Shown: positions 7,045-17,574 of the stretch, piece by piece
Layout: every line of letters starts with the position of its first letter
Position numbering within the stretch: the first letter of the stretch is position 1
NCBI RefSeq assembly: GCF_008087625.1
Contig: NZ_CP042997.1
Span: forward strand, 62,001 to 126,000
From: Aquisphaera giovannonii
GTDB lineage: Bacteria > Planctomycetota > Planctomycetia > Isosphaerales > Isosphaeraceae
Direction of reading: 5' to 3'
Length of the DNA stretch: 64,000 nt
Notes under the pieces: generated by a model
Told to the model about the DNA's origin: nothing
The model's database searches: none
What the model saw: the letters and a program-made list of their open reading frames with translations, nothing else
Position numbers and translations under genes: made by a program

Positions 7045-8907
7045 ATGCGCATCCGCCCGATGATCCCGTGGCTCGCCGGGGCCCTCGCGCTGGCCCCCGG
7101 CGCCGGATGGTCCCAATCCAAGGGGCTGCAAGAGCCGAGGCCCGGCGGCCGGGCCATCCGGCTGGTGGCCATGGGCGATTCCATCACCAGGGGCGTCAGG
7201 GAGGGCGTCCGCCCCGAGGAGACGTTCGCCGCCCTGGCCGAACGGGCCCTGAGGTCCGAGGGGATGCCCGTCGAGCTCGTGAACCTGGGGGCGGGGGGCG
7301 AGCGGACCGACCGGGCCCTGGGGCGGCTCGACGAGGTCTCCGGGCTCCGGCCCGAGGTCGCCATCGTGATGTACGGGACGAACGACGGCCACGTCGACGC
7401 GGGGGCGAAGGCGAGTCGCCTCTCCCTCGATCAATACAGGGAGAACCTGAGGGCGATCGTCGCCGGGTTGCTCCTCCGGGGCGTCGAGCCGGTCCTCATG
7501 ACCGAGCCCCGGTGGGCCGACGACGCCCCGGCCGACGGGCTCGGCGAGGATCCCAACGTGCGCCTCGCCCGGTACATGGAGGCGTGCCGGGCGGTCGCCG
7601 CCGAGTGCCGCGTGCCGGTCGTGGACCACTTCGCGCGCTGGACCGAGGCCCGCTCGAAGGGTCAGGCCCTGGGCGATTGGACGACCGACGGCTGCCACCC
7701 GAACCCGCGGGGCCATCGGGCGATGGCGGACGCGTTGTTGCCGGTCCTCCGGCGTCGCCTCCGCCCCGCCCCGCGGCCCGTCCCCTTCGTGACTCGGCTC
7801 GAGGCCGTGCTCGCGCACGACGACGGTCGCTTCCTGTGGTATCACCCCAGGCCGGCGGCCATCCCGTCGGGCCCGGGCGCCGCTCCCCGGGTGGTCCTGA
7901 CGTTGCAGCAGCATCTTCACGTCTCGGACTACTACTCCGGATTGAGCGACCTGACGAGCGACGACCTGGGCAGGAGTTGGTCGGGCCCCCGGCCGGTCGC
8001 GGAGCTGGACTGGGCCCGGGAGCCCGGCGGCGTCGTGGTCGCCGTGGCGGACGTCACGCCGATGTTCCATCCGCCCTCGAAGAAGGTCCTCGCGGTGGGG
8101 GCCCAGGTGCGGTACGGCCCGAAGGGCGAGCAACTCGAGGACCGCCGGCGGTCCAACCAGACGGCGTACGCCGTCCTCGACCCGGCGACGGGACGCTGGA
8201 CCCGCTGGCGGAGGCTCGAGATGCCGGCGGACCGGGCGTTCGACTTCGCCCGCAGCGCCTGCGCCCAGTTCGTCGTCGAGGCGGACGGCTCGGTGCTCCT
8301 GCCGTTCTACGTCGCGGAGTCGGCCGACGGCTCCTACCGCGTGACGGTCGTCCGATGCACGTTCGACGGCGACGTGCTGGCCTTCCGCGAGCGCGGCGAC
8401 GTGCTGTCGCTGGACGTCGCCAGGAGGCTGTACGAGCCGTCCCTCATCCGCCTGGGGAAGGACCACTTCCTGACGATCCGCAACGACCGGAAGGGCTACG
8501 TCACCGCGGGCGGCGACGGGCTGCACTACCGCCCCGTGAAGCCCTGGACGTTCGACGACGGCGAGGACCTCGGGAGCTACAACACGCAGCAGCACTGGCT
8601 GGCCCACGGGGATGCGCTCTTCCTGGCCTACACCCGCCGCGGCGCGAACAACGGCCACATCATGAGGCATCGGGCGCCCTTGTTCCTGGCGCAGGTCGAT
8701 CCCGAGCAGCTCCGGGTGGTCCGGGCGACCGAGCGTGTCCTCGTCCCCGAGCGGGGCGCCGAGCTGGGCAACTTCGGCGCGGCGGCCATCACGGACCGCG
8801 AATCGTGGGTCACCGTGGCCGAGGGCGTCTGGGATGACGCCGCCCGCCGCCGCGGGGCGAAGGGGGCGGTCTTCGTAGCCCGCGTGCTCTGGGATGAGGG
8901 GGGCTGA
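7045..8907 (+). CDS. Secreted SGNH/GDSL hydrolase fused to sialidase-like propeller
   Basis: ATG 7045 is preceded by AAGGAG 8 bases upstream. The product is 620 aa with a probable signal peptide (residues 1-23). Residues about 38-240 form an SGNH esterase: block I GDSITRG (Ser46), GTND, and block V DGCHP with Asp215 and His218. Residues about 255-620 resemble the BNR/sialidase-type six-bladed propeller found in exo-alpha-sialidase-like planctomycete proteins (SDLTSDDLGRSWSGP is an Asp-box-like motif). The combination suggests a deacetylase or esterase paired with a glycan-binding or glycan-cleaving module for external polysaccharides. It stands alone. Substrate unknown; catalytic residues of true sialidases cannot be confirmed by eye. 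Confidence 0.8.
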   Translation: MRIRPMIPWLAGALALAPGAGWSQSKGLQEPRPGGRAIRLVAMGDSITRGVREGVRPEETFAALAERALRSEGMPVELVNLGAGGERTDRALGRLDEVSGLRPEVAIVMYGTNDGHVDAGAKASRLSLDQYRENLRAIVAGLLLRGVEPVLMTEPRWADDAPADGLGEDPNVRLARYMEACRAVAAECRVPVVDHFARWTEARSKGQALGDWTTDGCHPNPRGHRAMADALLPVLRRRLRPAPRPVPFVTRLEAVLAHDDGRFLWYHPRPAAIPSGPGAAPRVVLTLQQHLHVSDYYSGLSDLTSDDLGRSWSGPRPVAELDWAREPGGVVVAVADVTPMFHPPSKKVLAVGAQVRYGPKGEQLEDRRRSNQTAYAVLDPATGRWTRWRRLEMPADRAFDFARSACAQFVVEADGSVLLPFYVAESADGSYRVTVVRCTFDGDVLAFRERGDVLSLDVARRLYEPSLIRLGKDHFLTIRNDRKGYVTAGGDGLHYRPVKPWTFDDGEDLGSYNTQQHWLAHGDALFLAYTRRGANNGHIMRHRAPLFLAQVDPEQLRVVRATERVLVPERGAELGNFGAAAITDRESWVTVAEGVWDDAARRRGAKGAVFVARVLWDEGG

Positions 8908-9061: not shown

Positions 9062-10396
9062 TCACGGGCCGCTCGGCCGCACGAAGATGGAGTTGTTCTT
9101 GCGCGGGACGCGGGGAGTCACCGACAGCGTCACGGAGGGGTCATTCGGGTCGAGGGTGACGACCTCGTGGGCCTCGAGCATGACGGCGCTCCGGCTGGGG
9201 TCGTTGATCCAGAGGCTCCTCTGGAGGATCCCGCTCTCTCCCTGGGTCGGGCGTACGGGCGTCACCTGGTAGCCGACCGCGACGCGGGCGTGCCGGGTGA
9301 TCCCGCTCTTGAAGGCCCTGCCCGCGTCGATCTCGCCCACGAATTCCTGCCAGGTCGGGGTGTCGTCGAAGATCACCTCGAAGCCGAGCGGGAAGAAATG
9401 CTCGAAGACCTCGACCTGCCGGCTGGGGAGGATGCCCTCGTTGGGGATGAAGAGAGGGGGGGCGAGCGCCTGGAGGGTGGCGGCCATTTCCTGCTGGCCC
9501 GGGAGCGTCCCGACCTGGAGCGAGTCGGCGATCATGCGGATGCAGGCGAGGACGCAGAACACCTGGCCCTCCTGCCGGACGTGCCCGACGGCGAGGACCC
9601 GCTCCGTCTCCTGGCCCTCGGGCTGGTCCGATGCCTCGCCCTCGGCGCGACGCCCGGCCGGGCGGGTGAGCATCTCGGCCTGGTTCGCCGCGTTCCAGAT
9701 CAGCGCGTTCTTGATGTCCTCGATGCTCCTGCGTGGCCGGTCCGTGGGGGACGACGACGTGCTGCTGTCGCTGCCCTCGTCGATCAGGCGTTCGATCAGC
9801 CCGTCGAACCGGTCGAACTCCGGGCGCGGGTCGGTCCCCTCCGACAGGGACTCCAGCAGCGAGTAGGGGCCGGGGCCCTCGGCCTCGGAGCCGGTCGGGG
9901 GCGGGGCCCCTTCCGGGATCTCGGTGAGTGGCCGCGACGGGTTCTCCGGGTCGAAGAGCCGCACGACGGTCCGGCCGCCCGGGGTCGCGGCCCTCAGGAG
10001 GAGGCCGACGTTGGGGTAGAGGTGGCAGACGGGCTTGGCCTCGATGATCTGGCTCCCCGCGGCCTCCTGATCGAGGAGCGCCTGGGCCCGCTGGAGCGAG
10101 GCGGCCGTGTCGAAGGGGAGGGCCTGCTGGATCGCGATCCAGGGGTGTCCCAGCTCCTTGGTCGCCGCGACGCGGACCGAGCCGAGCGGGCGGCCGTTCA
10201 GGGCGACGGGGAAGTCGTAGAAGAGCGGCGACTCGTTCAGGTCGAAGATCAGCGTCGGCTCGTCCGCGAGGTCGCCGACGAAGAGGTCCTCGACGCCGGG
10301 CGGGACCGCCTGCAGGCTCCGCTGGACGATCGTCAGGAAGGACACGGCGTGCACCAGGGCGGAATCCCGGCTGATCTCGAGGTCTTCGGGCGGCAT
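9062..10396 (-). CDS. Papain/C39-like cysteine protease in RiPP locus
   Basis: 444 aa, ATG at 10396. Residues 1-270 have no family I recognise. Residues about 272-444 look like a papain-like C39-type peptidase: a Gln-containing stretch EGQVFCVLACIRMI with candidate nucleophile Cys281, then candidate His369 in GITRHARVAVGY, and LWINDP (about 397) as the third catalytic element. Unlike C39 domains of bacteriocin exporters it is not joined to an ABC transporter and shows no membrane segments. It is the last gene of a minus-strand set, 27 bp after the RibF-like gene, so it is a candidate leader peptidase for the lanthipeptide precursor upstream. A role in unrelated proteolysis cannot be excluded. 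Confidence 0.7.
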   Translation of the reverse strand: MPPEDLEISRDSALVHAVSFLTIVQRSLQAVPPGVEDLFVGDLADEPTLIFDLNESPLFYDFPVALNGRPLGSVRVAATKELGHPWIAIQQALPFDTAASLQRAQALLDQEAAGSQIIEAKPVCHLYPNVGLLLRAATPGGRTVVRLFDPENPSRPLTEIPEGAPPPTGSEAEGPGPYSLLESLSEGTDPRPEFDRFDGLIERLIDEGSDSSTSSSPTDRPRRSIEDIKNALIWNAANQAEMLTRPAGRRAEGEASDQPEGQETERVLAVGHVRQEGQVFCVLACIRMIADSLQVGTLPGQQEMAATLQALAPPLFIPNEGILPSRQVEVFEHFFPLGFEVIFDDTPTWQEFVGEIDAGRAFKSGITRHARVAVGYQVTPVRPTQGESGILQRSLWINDPSRSAVMLEAHEVVTLDPNDPSVTLSVTPRVPRKNNSIFVRPSGP

Positions 10397-10423
10397 GGGG
10401 GGGCTCCGGAAGAACGTGGCGGC

Positions 10424-11236
10424 TCAACCCGGTTGATGGACGCTCCGGCCATCCCGGGCCCCGGCCCGGGATGGCTCGCACGACTCGGCCGGGCCGTCCG
10501 CGGGGCCGGCGAGGAACGCCAGCCAGTCCGCACGCCCCGGCCACGGCACGCTCGGGGGCGTCCCGTCCCGCGACGACAGGGTCAGGCACGTCGGCTCGCC
10601 GGCCGGCCGCCCGCCCGGGCCGTCCACCGGGACGGCCAGGTAATCCCCGGGGGCCCAGGGCAGCGGCAACGACCCGGAATCGGGCCGCGCCCGGGCGGGC
10701 GGCCGCCGGACCAGCTCGATCGCGTCGCGGAGCCGGCCCGCCCGCAGGTACTGGCGGACGGTCCGGCAGGTGAAGCGCGCGAGCGAGGGGGCCAGCCGGC
10801 GGACCGTCACGCCGCGCGAGTCGGCGTACGCGAGGATCGCGTCGAGCGACCCGGCCGGCCCGCTCCCGAAGGACTGCCGGCGGCCGAGCCACAGCTCGCC
10901 GAGCGGCAGCACGGCCATCACGGCGCCCAGGAACGCGGCGGCGTCCGACTGGAGGTCGGCCTCCCCCATCTCCACGAGCAGGGATCCGCCGAGCCCGCAG
11001 CCCTCCTGGAGGGCCAGGCGCGACGCGAGGTCGTCGTAGTCCTGCCAGACGACCGGCGCGTGCACGAAGACCCCGGGGTTCGGGTCGATGGTCGCGACGA
11101 TCGGGTGCAGGCCCCGGGCCGTGGCGTCGTCCCGCAGCAGCCGGAAGAGGTCCAGGTGCTCCGGCAGCACCGGGTCCCAGACCCCGACCAGCAGCGCGAC
11201 CGGCGCGGCGGGCCGGCAGGAGAGGCGGAGGTTCAT
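10424..11236 (-). CDS. RibF-like (FAD synthetase-like) protein in RiPP locus
   Basis: 270 aa. ATG 11236 overlaps the stop of the synthetase gene (ATGA), implying translational coupling; a second ATG six codons earlier is possible. The N-terminal half follows the FAD-synthetase/RibF nucleotidyltransferase pattern: LLVGVWDPVLPEHLDL in place of GxFDGxHxGH, and VATIDPNPGVF matching the TxDPxP loop. RFTCRTVRQYL followed by AGRLRDAIELVRRPP resembles the RibF STRIR/GRP region. The residual C-terminus is short for a riboflavin-kinase module. Catalytic glycine and first histidine positions differ from RibF, so it may have lost or changed activity. Context implies a role in maturing the peptide, possibly nucleotide transfer or substrate binding; that is inference. 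Confidence 0.6.
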   Translation of the reverse strand: MNLRLSCRPAAPVALLVGVWDPVLPEHLDLFRLLRDDATARGLHPIVATIDPNPGVFVHAPVVWQDYDDLASRLALQEGCGLGGSLLVEMGEADLQSDAAAFLGAVMAVLPLGELWLGRRQSFGSGPAGSLDAILAYADSRGVTVRRLAPSLARFTCRTVRQYLRAGRLRDAIELVRRPPARARPDSGSLPLPWAPGDYLAVPVDGPGGRPAGEPTCLTLSSRDGTPPSVPWPGRADWLAFLAGPADGPAESCEPSRAGARDGRSVHQPG

Positions 11237-13875
11237 GACGCGAGCTCCCGACATTCCCGCAGCCAGGGCCCCGAGAGGAGCGGGGCGTGCCCGGGCCGCG
11301 TGCCCATCGCGAGGGCGGCCGCCGGGCCCAGGAAGCCGACCCAGAGGTCGGGCGTGATGACCTCGGGATCCTCGGAGGACCAGACGACCCCGCCGCCCCT
11401 CCGCTGCTGGAGCAGGCGGAGGACGGCCTCGATGCGGGCCCCGCGACGGGCCGCCCATCCCTCGTGCCGGGGCAAGGCGCCGAGCATCCGGCAGAGCTCC
11501 AACTGGCCGGCGAGCCCGTGGCAGAAGGTCGGGTTCCGGACCATCGAGGCGCGGCGGAAGGCCGACGCCGCCCGGTCGACCGCGGGCGAGGATCGCGGGT
11601 CGTCGCCGAGGGCCTGGAGGAGGCACCAGAGGTAGCCCGCCGGCCCGTGGCACCAGTCGCCGAGGGGGGCGGCGGGCGAGCCGGGTCCCAGGAATCGCCG
11701 GAGGGACAGGCCGTCGGGGGTCCTGGCGCCGCGGTCGAGCCCCGCGAACACCTCCCGGGCCAGGCCCGACGCCCCCGGGTCGCCGGCGGCGCGGCCCCAG
11801 TGCGCCAGGGCCAGGGCCACGCCCGCCGCGCCGTGGGCCGCGCCGACGTGGGGGGCCCGGACGCCGTCCAGCCGGCCCGAGGGCGCCCACGCGACGACGC
11901 CGTCCGCCTCGCTCGCGGCGGCGACGATCGTGCCGGCCAGGTGCTCGACGATCCGGAGCGGCGAGGCGTCGCCCGAGATTTCGGCGATCAGGCACCCCGC
12001 CCAGAGGACCCCGGCGGCGCCGGAGAACAGGTCCAGCTCCTCCACGCTCGCAGCCGCGGCGGAGAGGCGTCGCAGGGCGGCGTCGCGGGCCCGGCCGGGG
12101 TCCGCCGAGTAGGGCCCGCCGGCGACGAGCGCCAGCGCGACGCCGGCGTCCCCGGTGAACAGCCCGGGCGACTCCGGGGTCGGTCCGCGACGCGAGAGCC
12201 AGTCGATCGCCGGGCCGACGTCCGCCGCGACCCGGCGGTCCCTCAGCGCCGTCGCGACGGAGATGAGCCCGAGGACGACCCCGGCGGCGCCGAGGTTGAT
12301 CCCCTCGCAGGCGTATCCGGAGTAGAGGTGCCGGTTCCGCCACCAGTGGCCGTCTGGGCCCGCGACGAGGAAGCCCGAGGCGGCCCGGGCGGCCTCCGTC
12401 GATGCCCTGATCGCCCATCGGCGGCCGGCGTCCCGGGCCCGCGGCGGCGGCCCCTCGGCCGGCGGCCCGCCGGACGCGGCCGCCTCCATCCGGCGGGCCG
12501 CCTCCTCGGCCCGCGGGCGGGCGGCCGGATCGGCGTCGGTCAGCCGCCGCACGAGGTCGGCCGCGTCGTGCGCGCGGGCCAGGTGCAGGAGGCCGATCAG
12601 CCTCCCCCGCCCCGCGGGCATCAGCCCGGGGTCGGATTCGAGCACCGCGTGCGCCAGGGTGGCCCCCAGGGCGTAGCAGTCCGCGGCGGCGTCGGCCGGG
12701 CCGGGATCGCCGGGCGGCAGGTATCCCCGCGTGCCGCCCGGGATGGGGGCCGGATGGCCCGCGGGGCAGGCCAGCTCGAAGTCGATGAGGCACACCCCGG
12801 ATTCGCCGAGGATGGCGTTCGAAAGCTTGACGTCGCGGTGCACGAAGCCGCGGTCGTGGAGCGAGGCGACCGCCCGCGCCAGGCCCGCCAGGGCCGGCCC
12901 CCTGGCCGCGCGGGGGAGCTGGTGGAGCGGCGTGCCCGGCACGTCGGCCAGGACGAGCAAGGCCGTCTCCCCGGCCTCGAGGCCGAGCGGGGCCGGCGCG
13001 ATCGCAACGCCCCCGGCCTCCCGGAGCCGTGATAGGATGCGGAACTCGTTCGAGAGGCGTTCCACCGCGTCGTGGCCCAGGGGATCTCCCCCCACGCCCC
13101 TCCTGGCGGACTTGATGACCACGGCCGCGCCCGTGGCCGCGTCGACGCCCAGGACGACGTCCCCCTTGGCGGAGGAGTGCAGCGTCTTGAGCCGGTAGTA
13201 GGCCCGGCCGCCGACCGTCGCCAGCACGGGCAGTCGGCCGCCGCGGGCCGCCCCCGATTCGACCGGCGGGCCGGGGGCCCAGGGCGGCCGGCCGCCCGGC
13301 AGGTCGCGGCGGTCCTCGACGAGCCGGCCCTCCGGGGAGCGCAGGGCCGGGCTGAACCGGCCGAAGGCGTCGACCAGGACGTCCCGCCCGCCGATCGCCC
13401 CGTATCGGAGGTAGACCGCGCTGGCGGGCCCGACCCGGAGCCCGAACGGGACGCCCGGGCCCCTCGCGGAACGCCAGCGGGCGTCCAGGCCGATCGCCAG
13501 GCGGCGGCACGCCGCGTCGTCCGCGGGGTAGACCGTCAGCGCCTTCCCCACCTGGGTTCGGCCGGCTTCCCCGCCGTTCAGGAGGAGGTAGCCCTCCAGG
13601 CCCGACGGCAGCTTGAAGCTCGCCTCGTGCCGGGCGAGGTAGGGCAGCACCTCGTCGAAGAGCCCGAGCACCTCGGACGCAGCGATCGACAGGTGGATCT
13701 TCCACCCCTGCCCGGGGAGCGGCCCCGGGCCGCGGAAGCTACGCCAGCGCACCCTGCCGGTCTGATATTCGGCGACCCGCCACCGCGTGCCGAGCGAGTC
13801 GCCGAACCGATCCAGGGCCCGCGCATACTCCGCAGCCTGGGGCCACCGGAGGCCCGCGATCCGGCCCGACTCCAT
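11233..13875 (-). CDS. Class III/IV-type lanthionine synthetase (lyase-kinase-cyclase)
   Basis: 880 aa, ATG 13875 with GAGG about 8 bases upstream. Three domains: an N-terminal LanKC-type lyase region (WKIHLSIAASE and ASFKLPSG, about 55-95); a Ser/Thr kinase domain (about 215-460) with HRDVKLSN (Asp348), IDFELA and GTRGYLPP; and a LanC-like cyclase (about 520-880) with HGAAG (His681), WCHG (Cys742) and FCHG (Cys785-His786). The Cys-Cys-His zinc set is retained, as in class IV LanL, whereas class III LanKC enzymes usually lack it. It should phosphorylate and eliminate Ser/Thr in the precursor encoded just upstream (12-bp gap), then add Cys thiols to form lanthionine rings. It lies 4 bp into the RibF-like gene. 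Confidence 0.9.
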   Translation of the reverse strand: MESGRIAGLRWPQAAEYARALDRFGDSLGTRWRVAEYQTGRVRWRSFRGPGPLPGQGWKIHLSIAASEVLGLFDEVLPYLARHEASFKLPSGLEGYLLLNGGEAGRTQVGKALTVYPADDAACRRLAIGLDARWRSARGPGVPFGLRVGPASAVYLRYGAIGGRDVLVDAFGRFSPALRSPEGRLVEDRRDLPGGRPPWAPGPPVESGAARGGRLPVLATVGGRAYYRLKTLHSSAKGDVVLGVDAATGAAVVIKSARRGVGGDPLGHDAVERLSNEFRILSRLREAGGVAIAPAPLGLEAGETALLVLADVPGTPLHQLPRAARGPALAGLARAVASLHDRGFVHRDVKLSNAILGESGVCLIDFELACPAGHPAPIPGGTRGYLPPGDPGPADAAADCYALGATLAHAVLESDPGLMPAGRGRLIGLLHLARAHDAADLVRRLTDADPAARPRAEEAARRMEAAASGGPPAEGPPPRARDAGRRWAIRASTEAARAASGFLVAGPDGHWWRNRHLYSGYACEGINLGAAGVVLGLISVATALRDRRVAADVGPAIDWLSRRGPTPESPGLFTGDAGVALALVAGGPYSADPGRARDAALRRLSAAAASVEELDLFSGAAGVLWAGCLIAEISGDASPLRIVEHLAGTIVAAASEADGVVAWAPSGRLDGVRAPHVGAAHGAAGVALALAHWGRAAGDPGASGLAREVFAGLDRGARTPDGLSLRRFLGPGSPAAPLGDWCHGPAGYLWCLLQALGDDPRSSPAVDRAASAFRRASMVRNPTFCHGLAGQLELCRMLGALPRHEGWAARRGARIEAVLRLLQQRRGGGVVWSSEDPEVITPDLWVGFLGPAAALAMGTRPGHAPLLSGPWLRECRELAS

Positions 13876-13887
13876 GGCGGCGCCTCG

Positions 13888-14196
13888 TCAGCCGAAGCTC
13901 GTGACGCAGCACCCCGTGCAGGCGCAACCCGTGACCGCGCAGTCGAGGCCCTCGGGGACCTCCATGCCCTCCTCCTCCATGAATTCCGCCTGGATCTCGC
14001 GGTTCAGGCCGATGTCGCCGAGGACGCGGCCAGGGTCGTCCTGGAATCTCTGCGCCAACTCGGGCTTCTGCTCCATCGCCCGCCTCAGCTCGAGCAGCAC
14101 CGTGCGGATCGTGGCGGCGTCCGGCTGGATGACGCCGTTGATGACTCGCACGCTCGGCCCGGGGGCCGGAGGATTCGCGTAGCCGGTGTCTCCCAT
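13888..14196 (-). CDS. Putative lanthipeptide precursor (102 aa, Cys-rich core)
   Basis: From ATG 14196 the product is 102 residues. Residues 1-84 form an acidic, helical leader (LAQRFQDDPGRVLGDIGLN) with the DP-x-L pattern seen in Nif11/NHLP-type leaders. Residues 85-102, DCAVTGCACTGCCVTSFG, form a core with five cysteines (86, 91, 93, 96, 97) and four Ser/Thr (89, 94, 99, 100), ideal for Thr/Ser dehydration and thioether formation. It ends 12 bp before the lanthionine synthetase gene, on the same strand. The leader-core boundary is uncertain; MEVPEG (78-83) is a plausible processing zone. The ribosome site before ATG 14196 is weak, but no better start fits. Confidence 0.8.
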   Translation of the reverse strand: MGDTGYANPPAPGPSVRVINGVIQPDAATIRTVLLELRRAMEQKPELAQRFQDDPGRVLGDIGLNREIQAEFMEEEGMEVPEGLDCAVTGCACTGCCVTSFG

Positions 14197-15829: not shown

Positions 15830-17574
15830 GGGTGCACGTCAGCTTCTGCGCCTTCTACTGCGAGGACGAGGATGTCAATGGAGGAACGCGGGGGTTCCGT
15901 GGTAGAGTGCGGCCCTTCGGTGCTTTGGAGGCCCGATCTACCCCGGCGGAGGCCGATCCATGGATGGGACGATGGCCGAACTTCAGGCGAGATTGGACCA
16001 ACTCCTGAAGGAGGCGGCACGCGTCGCCGTGGCCCTCGATCGGGCCGACGGCACGGTGGTGGGCATCCCCCACTACTCGGTCATCGAAGCCCGTGCCCAC
16101 GAGCTGGGGCGGCGGCTCAGCCGTACGGTGCAAGCCCGTCACATGGGGGAGCTGGCCTCGCACGCGACCCGCTCGGTCAAGTGCCCCGAGTGCGGCACCC
16201 GCTGCGAGGTCGTCCCCAGGAGTCGCTCCGTCACTTCGATAGACGGCCCCCTGGACTTCGATGAGCCGATGGGTCATTGCCCCCGCTGTCGCCGCGGGTT
16301 TTTCCCCCCTCCGGGAGGCGCTGGGCCTTGATGCTCGGGCCTTGACCCCGACCCTCGTGCGACGGCTCACCTACGCCGGAGCCGAGGCCCGCTCGTTCAA
16401 GCGGGCCGCCATCGTGATGAAGCAGGTGGCCGGCCAGCCCGTCTCGGCCAAGACCATCGAGCGCGTGGTGCGCGACGTCGGCCTCGAGCTGGCCCGACGT
16501 CGGGACGCCGATCCCAGGACCGATGACTCGCTGGCACGGCGCCCCGAGGGCCCGCCGGCGCTGGCGGTGGTCGAATGCGACGGCGGCCGGATCCGCACCC
16601 GCGAGCCGGGACACGGCCCCGGCGTCCACCGCACATCCGAGGGGTGGCGAGAGACCAAGAACGCCTGCCTGATCCGGGCCCGGCCCACGACCTCCGAGGA
16701 AGACCCCGAGCCCGAGCCGCCGGCCTGCTTCGCCGACCCGGAGCACGTGGCCAAGATCGCCGAGACCGAAGCCCTGTCGGTCGCCTCCATGGCCTCGCCG
16801 CCCGAGTCGCCATCGCGGGCCGGCGAGCCCCCCGAGGGCATGGAGATGGTGCCGCCGGCCGACTGGCGGCCGAAGCGGTCGGTGCGCACCGTGCTGAGCA
16901 GCATGGCGGACTCGAAGGAGTTCGGCAAGCAGATGGCGCGGGAAGCCAAGCGGCGGCGATTCCCCGAGGCGTCAGCCAAGGCGTTCCTGGGCGATGGGCT
17001 GGCGTGGAACTGGTCGATCCGGAAGCGGCACTTCGGCGAGTTTACGCCGATCCTCGACTTCATCCACGTGCTGAGCTACCTGTTCCTGGTGGCCAAGGCC
17101 GTGCACGAGGGGCCCGAGGACGCGTGGGACCGGTACCTGGCCTGGATGCGAGGCGCATGGCGAGGGGAGGTCGGCCAGGTGATCGAGGAGTTGCAGGCCT
17201 GGCGGGCGAAGCTGGGCGAGCCGCCCGCGACCGCGCCGGATCAGGACCCGCGGAAGGTCCTGGCCGTGACGATCACCTACCTGAGCAACAACGAAGGGCG
17301 CATGAGATATCCCGAATATCGCCGGAGCGGGCTGCCGGTGACGACGGCCTGGATGGAGTCGCTCGTCAAGGAGGTGAACTACCGGGTCAAGGGGACCGAG
17401 ATGTTCTGGAACGACCCGGAGGGGGCCGAGGCCATCCTCCAGGTGCGCGCCGCGGCGCTCTCGGACGACGAACGGCTGGAGGCGCACCTCGAGACACGTC
17501 CGGGCTGTCCCTTCACTCGCCGGCCACGAGCGCCCAGATTAACGCGCAAGAAAATCAGAAGCTGACGTGCACCC
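15830..17574 (+). mobile_element. ISKra4-like insertion sequence, 1,745 bp
   Basis: Perfect 19-bp terminal inverted repeats bound the element: GGGTGCACGTCAGCTTCTG at 15830-15848 and its reverse complement at 17556-17574. A 16-bp direct repeat flanks both ends. Inside lies one transposase interrupted by a +1 frameshift. Intact ends plus matching flanks indicate a fairly recent insertion. It sits between the PEP-CTERM gene and the hybrid-cluster protein gene without breaking either. Confidence 0.9.
15960..17565 (+). pseudogene. ISKra4-family-like transposase, split by a +1 frameshift
   Basis: The first frame (ATG 15960) gives an N-terminal coil and a zinc-finger pair (CPECGTRCE and CPRCRRGFF); it stops at 16331. 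The second frame carries LREALGLDARALTPTLVRRL, the catalytic region (VVECDGGRI, then DFIHVLSYL) and LSNNEGRMRYPEYRRSGLPV, to a stop at 17565. These features fit ISKra4-group transposases. The frames join at a T5-C6 run (about 16299-16309), where reading one base further on gives CPRCRRGFFPLREALGL. Either the run has gained a C and the enzyme is dead, or frameshifting makes the full protein, as proposed for one ISKra4 subgroup. Confidence 0.8.

Follow-up and report, generated by a model that had tools for sequence, protein, structure and literature searches.

What does a compact run of four genes in the planctomycete Aquisphaera giovannonii produce, and do its unusual partners define a new kind of lanthipeptide biosynthesis? 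The genes occupy positions 9062-14196 of a 64,000-nucleotide stretch of contig NZ_CP042997.1, hereafter the window, and were initially annotated from the sequence as a lanthipeptide-like locus. Most descriptions of class III and class IV lanthipeptide enzymes concern Actinobacteria and Firmicutes (PMC7268733). A search of open papers for lanthipeptides associated with RibF or FAD synthetase, or for class IV systems in planctomycetes, yielded no description of such a locus, and a RibF-derived partner for lanthipeptides was unreported in the literature searched.

Gene arrangement and distribution

The locus consists of four minus-strand ORFs in the same orientation, encoding in the direction of reading a candidate precursor peptide, a predicted lanthionine synthetase, a RibF-derived protein and a protease-like protein. 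Precursor and synthetase are separated by 12 bp, the synthetase and RibF-like genes overlap by 4 bp (ATGA), and 27 bp lie between the RibF-like and protease-like genes; all coordinates and spacings given in the initial annotation (gaps of 12, -4 and 27 bp between four minus-strand genes) were reproduced. Codon-position GC contents of 67/48/91% (precursor), 79/60/95% (synthetase), 79/58/96% (RibF-like) and 70/47/96% (protease-like) give a strong signal that all four ORFs are coding, with the pattern of genuine genes in this genome of 73% GC. The shared direction, the spacing and the matching codon signal suggest a single transcript, and hence that the four genes may constitute a small operon. 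Scans for promoters, terminators and Rfam families gave no useful result.

The set is flanked by a PEP-CTERM-like gene and a GDSL hydrolase gene, and a histidine kinase is encoded further out. No transporter was found among these immediate neighbours, which agrees with the early remark that no transporter or immunity gene is evident. The GDSL hydrolase (window 7060-8907, plus strand) carries an extra C-terminal region and displays 75% identity to its counterpart in one same-genus genome. An empty-site comparison with the same-genus genome was uninformative, the GDSL gene being the sole shared gene with no further synteny. Elsewhere in the window, a 434-aa ORF (16261-17565, plus strand) gave no convincing Pfam match (a transposase-type HTH, E 0.1) and is possibly a mobile-element gene.

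The synthetase was detected in one of the 45 genomes of the family (A. giovannonii alone), in two of the 392 sampled genomes of the phylum and, at full length, in four of the 397 sampled genomes of the class, where six further matches covered the kinase region only. Its closest relatives, with 38% identity over ~870 aa, are encoded in three species of the planctomycete genus g23 (G394, G507 and G594); within the family of G394, three of 170 genomes possess the synthetase, all belonging to one genus. The g23 enzymes keep all catalytic residues. Their loci (L055 8237-15049; L083 8288-15096; L084 1166-10190), which represent a second planctomycete class IV-like lanthipeptide locus conserved in three species, all contain a 71-72-aa ORF ending CPWHTCQATRHG, after which come genes for the LanL-like enzyme, PhyH, an unknown protein of 563 aa and a P450. 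The 563-aa protein has no family match, and in G594 a stretch of ~2.3 kb with an 862-aa ORF is located between the PhyH gene and the gene for this unknown protein.

Homologues of the RibF-like protein in the 397 class genomes were essentially housekeeping RibF, with no related partner protein, and the protease-like protein had no coding homologue in the 392 phylum genomes; neither partner was present in the actinobacterial LanKC/LanL loci that were fetched. A search for co-occurrence of LanKC/LanL with a RibF-like gene and this precursor in planctomycetes found no instance, and no other genome searched (samples of 45 family, 392 phylum and 397 class genomes, and 170 genomes of the family of G394) holds the four genes together. 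The initial proposal of a new planctomycete subclass with these partners is thus not supported, the g23 synthetases having other partners, and the four-gene set is better described as an oddity seen in one genome, known only from A. giovannonii, than as a proven new class. What the data do support is that planctomycetes have a divergent lineage of class IV enzymes.

The different partners in g23, and the failure of the RibF-like and protease-like genes to recur anywhere searched, are also what would be expected if these two genes were unrelated and stood beside the LanL gene by chance or through recent insertion, leaving only synthetase and precursor of significance. We regard this as unlikely, albeit worth keeping in mind, given that the one direction, the short intervals (12, -4 and 27 bp) and the matching codon signal suggest one transcript.

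The precursor candidate and the synthetase

The lanthipeptide precursor candidate (13888-14196, minus strand) is a 102-aa peptide recognised by its distribution of Ser, Thr and Cys as well as its coding signal. Its predicted core, ..GLDCAVTGCACTGCCVTSFG, contains five Cys, three Thr and one Ser. The last 17 residues carry nine of the 13 Ser/Thr/Cys residues (hypergeometric P ~5e-6), and residues 33-85 contain none (P ~3e-5). The five Cys residues in this tail are the maximum among the 321 window ORFs of at least 50 aa, the runner-up having three, so that the Cys-rich precursor named at the outset is upheld, with a leader/core split in Ser/Thr/Cys content. A start at 14196 was preferred over a longer 177-aa ORF because the coding pattern fades upstream of this position (75/61/77%). 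No convincing homologue of the precursor was found in the 45 family genomes, where weak matches in relatives were at chance level (best E 0.02), or in the plasmid records searched. A nitrile-hydratase-like leader match (TIGR04351, E 0.013) was too weak to claim.

Since the precursor has no homologue, the partners are unique to A. giovannonii among the genomes searched and neither a transporter nor an immunity gene accompanies them, one might consider an operon that makes no metabolite, in which the small ORF is not a substrate, the target of the kinase/lyase/cyclase is a cellular protein, and the C39-like protein is a substrate or regulator. This is quite unlikely, however, considering that the small ORF is coding, is placed 12 bp upstream of the synthetase gene and displays a sharp Cys/Thr core, and that a small ORF containing Cys likewise immediately precedes the synthetase gene in the g23 relatives.

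On the reading of the small ORF as a lanthipeptide precursor, the synthetase (11233-13875, minus strand) would be the modifying enzyme. Pfam analysis identified lyase (RamC_N, 6e-36), Ser/Thr kinase (Pkinase, 9e-10) and zinc LanC cyclase (LANC_like, 1e-24) regions in one 880-aa chain, which matches PDB 8car across residues 44-810; several of its PDB matches are class III enzymes. In NCBIfam, the class IV LanL model (383 bits) scored above the class III LanKC model (268 bits), both under cut-off. The curated cut-off of the LanL equivalog model, NF038150, is 650 bits, and the enzyme is for this reason labelled LanL-like rather than an equivalog LanL; the same model gave 366-370 bits for the g23 relatives and 1062 bits for a Streptomyces LanL.

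In an alignment with ~50 relatives, the lyase residues (K59/H61/K88/N100/K111/Y116) and the kinase residues (K255/E277/D348/N353/D365, with DFE) were all present in the synthetase. The zinc ligands C742, C785 and H786 are also kept, and the aligned class III sequences do not have them; class III enzymes have been described as lacking zinc ligands (PMC10604976; PMC7268733). A maximum-likelihood tree placed the synthetase inside a 12-row branch of zinc-bearing enzymes, one row of which lacks the ligands (support 100/100), and grouped it with the other planctomycete enzymes (100/100), the tree including two of the three g23 enzymes. Nearest to the planctomycete clade are two long-branched plasmid enzymes, from Haematobacter massiliensis and Rhodococcus oxybenzonivorans (L098 6866-9604; L105 7067-9496); both are zinc-type LanL-like enzymes for which the annotation says no more than LanC family protein.

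Retention of the zinc ligands and the tree placement with zinc-bearing LanL enzymes support the assignment of the synthetase as a LanL-like (class IV-like) enzyme, divergent and far under the NCBI LanL cut-off. The presence of a LanKC/LanL synthetase in a lanthipeptide locus, as initially annotated, is accordingly supported, with the ambiguity between the two types settling on LanL-like. The identical three-domain architecture, the 268-bit score with the class III model and the class III enzymes among the PDB matches could be taken to indicate a class III LanKC giving labionin- or lanthionine-type products without zinc, but the C/C/H ligands that class III alignment rows do not have, the grouping with LanL in the tree and the higher score of the class IV model render this very unlikely.

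The RibF-derived and protease-like partners

The RibF-derived gene (10424-11236, minus strand) encodes a 270-aa protein with an FMN-adenylyltransferase domain by sequence, a degraded active site and a truncated riboflavin-kinase part. Its RibF ancestry is apparent in Pfam, NCBIfam and PDB matches, including Pfam FAD_syn at 24.7 bits, below the cut-off of 27, and the FMN-adenylyltransferase domain of RibF in PDB 4uze (E 3e-6). Alignment with 14 canonical proteins revealed that the RibF motif GNFDGVHxGH reads GVWDPVLPEH, with LPEH replacing the HxGH that is kept in all 14 canonical sequences, that the N125 position is occupied by Arg120, and that the SSTxxR region is altered. The protein does retain the second His of HxGH, FG and the Arg that ends the SSTxxR region. 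The riboflavin-kinase module is mostly gone, with no PTAN motif and at most a possible remnant, and a canonical RibF is encoded elsewhere in the A. giovannonii genome.

In the FADS of C. ammoniagenes, no FAD was formed after any of the replacements tried at H28, H31 or N125, and several of these variants still bound FMN (PMC3509593). Because the equivalents of H28 and N125, essential in that enzyme, are lost, the RibF-like protein is unlikely to make FAD; the designation RibF-like in the initial annotation stands as a statement of ancestry but not of function. The protein may instead be a catalytically dead FMN-adenylyltransferase kept as a flavin- or peptide-binding accessory, as these residues weakly suggest. 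A single-sequence structure model of it had a pLDDT of 35. We would give only a low, though not negligible, chance to the decayed protein being a dedicated lanthipeptide component, e.g. a scaffold that binds flavin, or a nucleotidyl-type enzyme re-purposed to act on the modified peptide.

A new catalytic role with altered active-site residues, e.g. nucleotidyl transfer to the peptide or to the protease, might be read from the nucleotidyltransferase-type sequence, the strong coding signal, the position between biosynthetic genes and the retained His, FG and Arg residues. Such a role appears rather improbable, as two residues that hold phosphate in FADS, the first His and N125, have been lost, and no related protein was found that could reveal conserved residues. 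Despite its RibF ancestry, a working FAD synthetase feeding cofactor to a flavin-dependent tailoring step is scarcely credible, in view of the LPEH and Arg replacements at sites essential in C. ammoniagenes FADS (PMC3509593), the mostly missing riboflavin-kinase module, an operon without a flavin enzyme and the canonical RibF elsewhere.

A Caballeronia plasmid match to the RibF-like protein was rejected, being a RibF with intact HxGH beside flavin oxidoreductase genes and unrelated to the pathway. This protein (L056 7869-8630) is a truncated RibF-type adenylyltransferase annotated as hypothetical, with genes for a flavin reductase and a flavin-dependent oxidoreductase as neighbours.

The remaining gene (9062-10396, minus strand) encodes a 444-aa putative C39/papain-like cysteine protease, in which an N-terminal region of ~270 aa with unassigned fold is followed by Q275..C281, H369 and D399. 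None of 200000 shuffles reproduced this Gln/Cys/His/Asp motif; the pattern was loosened once after its first version had failed, and since this was done after seeing the sequence, the motif serves as supporting and not as independent evidence. The protein gave no Pfam or NCBIfam match to E 10 and no PDB chain match, so that the papain/C39-like protease of the initial annotation is backed by the motif residues in their order but not by a family profile. No homologue was present in the plasmid records searched, and a weak match in G282 proved to be non-coding, with stops throughout. The single-sequence structure model had a pLDDT of 37, too low to be of use. No GG/GA site lies ahead of the precursor core, and a C39-type cut is thus not predicted by motif.

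Proposed pathway and comparison with known systems

Overall, it seems reasonably probable from the sequence evidence that the operon makes a lanthipeptide by means of a divergent LanL-type (class IV) synthetase. The N-terminal 80-odd residues of the precursor would serve as leader, and the kinase domain would phosphorylate Thr89, Thr94, Thr99 and Ser100 of the core, from which the N-terminal lyase would eliminate phosphate to provide dehydro residues. The zinc cyclase would then add core Cys residues across these positions, giving up to four thioether rings; with five Cys for four acceptors, at least one Cys would be left free or in a disulfide. The phosphorylation, elimination and Cys addition are proposed on the basis of established LanL chemistry and the conserved residues. 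Removal of the leader is probably performed inside the cell by the C39-like protein, and the RibF-derived protein, more tentatively, would probably participate as a non-catalytic accessory that binds flavin or peptide. The product may be exported by a transporter encoded elsewhere or stay intracellular.

Zinc-dependent enzymes that form a deep branch in planctomycetes, and are accompanied by two very dissimilar sets of partners, extend the reach of class IV chemistry and provide new substrates as well as possible tailoring steps. Should the RibF-derived protein take part in maturation, a fold that makes a cofactor would have acquired a new use in the biosynthesis of peptides; should it be uninvolved, the locus would be a divergent representative of a known kind.

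Among known systems, C. ammoniagenes FADS (PDB 2x0k) shares with the RibF-like protein the FMN-adenylyltransferase domain by sequence (residues 14-170), from which the latter departs in H28 to Leu, N125 to Arg, the altered SSTxxR region and the truncated riboflavin-kinase module. The 444-aa protein resembles C39 and C39-like peptidases in carrying Q-x5-C, H and NDP at the C-terminus in the same order, but has a long N-terminal region, no family match and no fused transporter, and the precursor lacks a GG site. Class III LanKC enzymes (ThurKC, CurKC) have the same domain order and DFE motif as the synthetase, whereas the zinc ligands it retains are absent there. The g23 loci encode the closest enzymes, also with a small Cys-containing precursor directly upstream, yet this precursor is unrelated to that of A. 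giovannonii, and the partners are a PhyH dioxygenase, the 563-aa protein and a P450, with no RibF-like or C39-like gene. Such partners are likewise missing from the actinobacterial LanL loci examined. Although the A. giovannonii enzyme reaches 383 bits against a cut-off of 650 and occupies a deep separate branch, it resembles VenL/SgbL-type LanL (NF038150) in uniting lyase, kinase and zinc LanC domains in a single chain that keeps every catalytic and zinc residue, and in having a small precursor encoded directly upstream.
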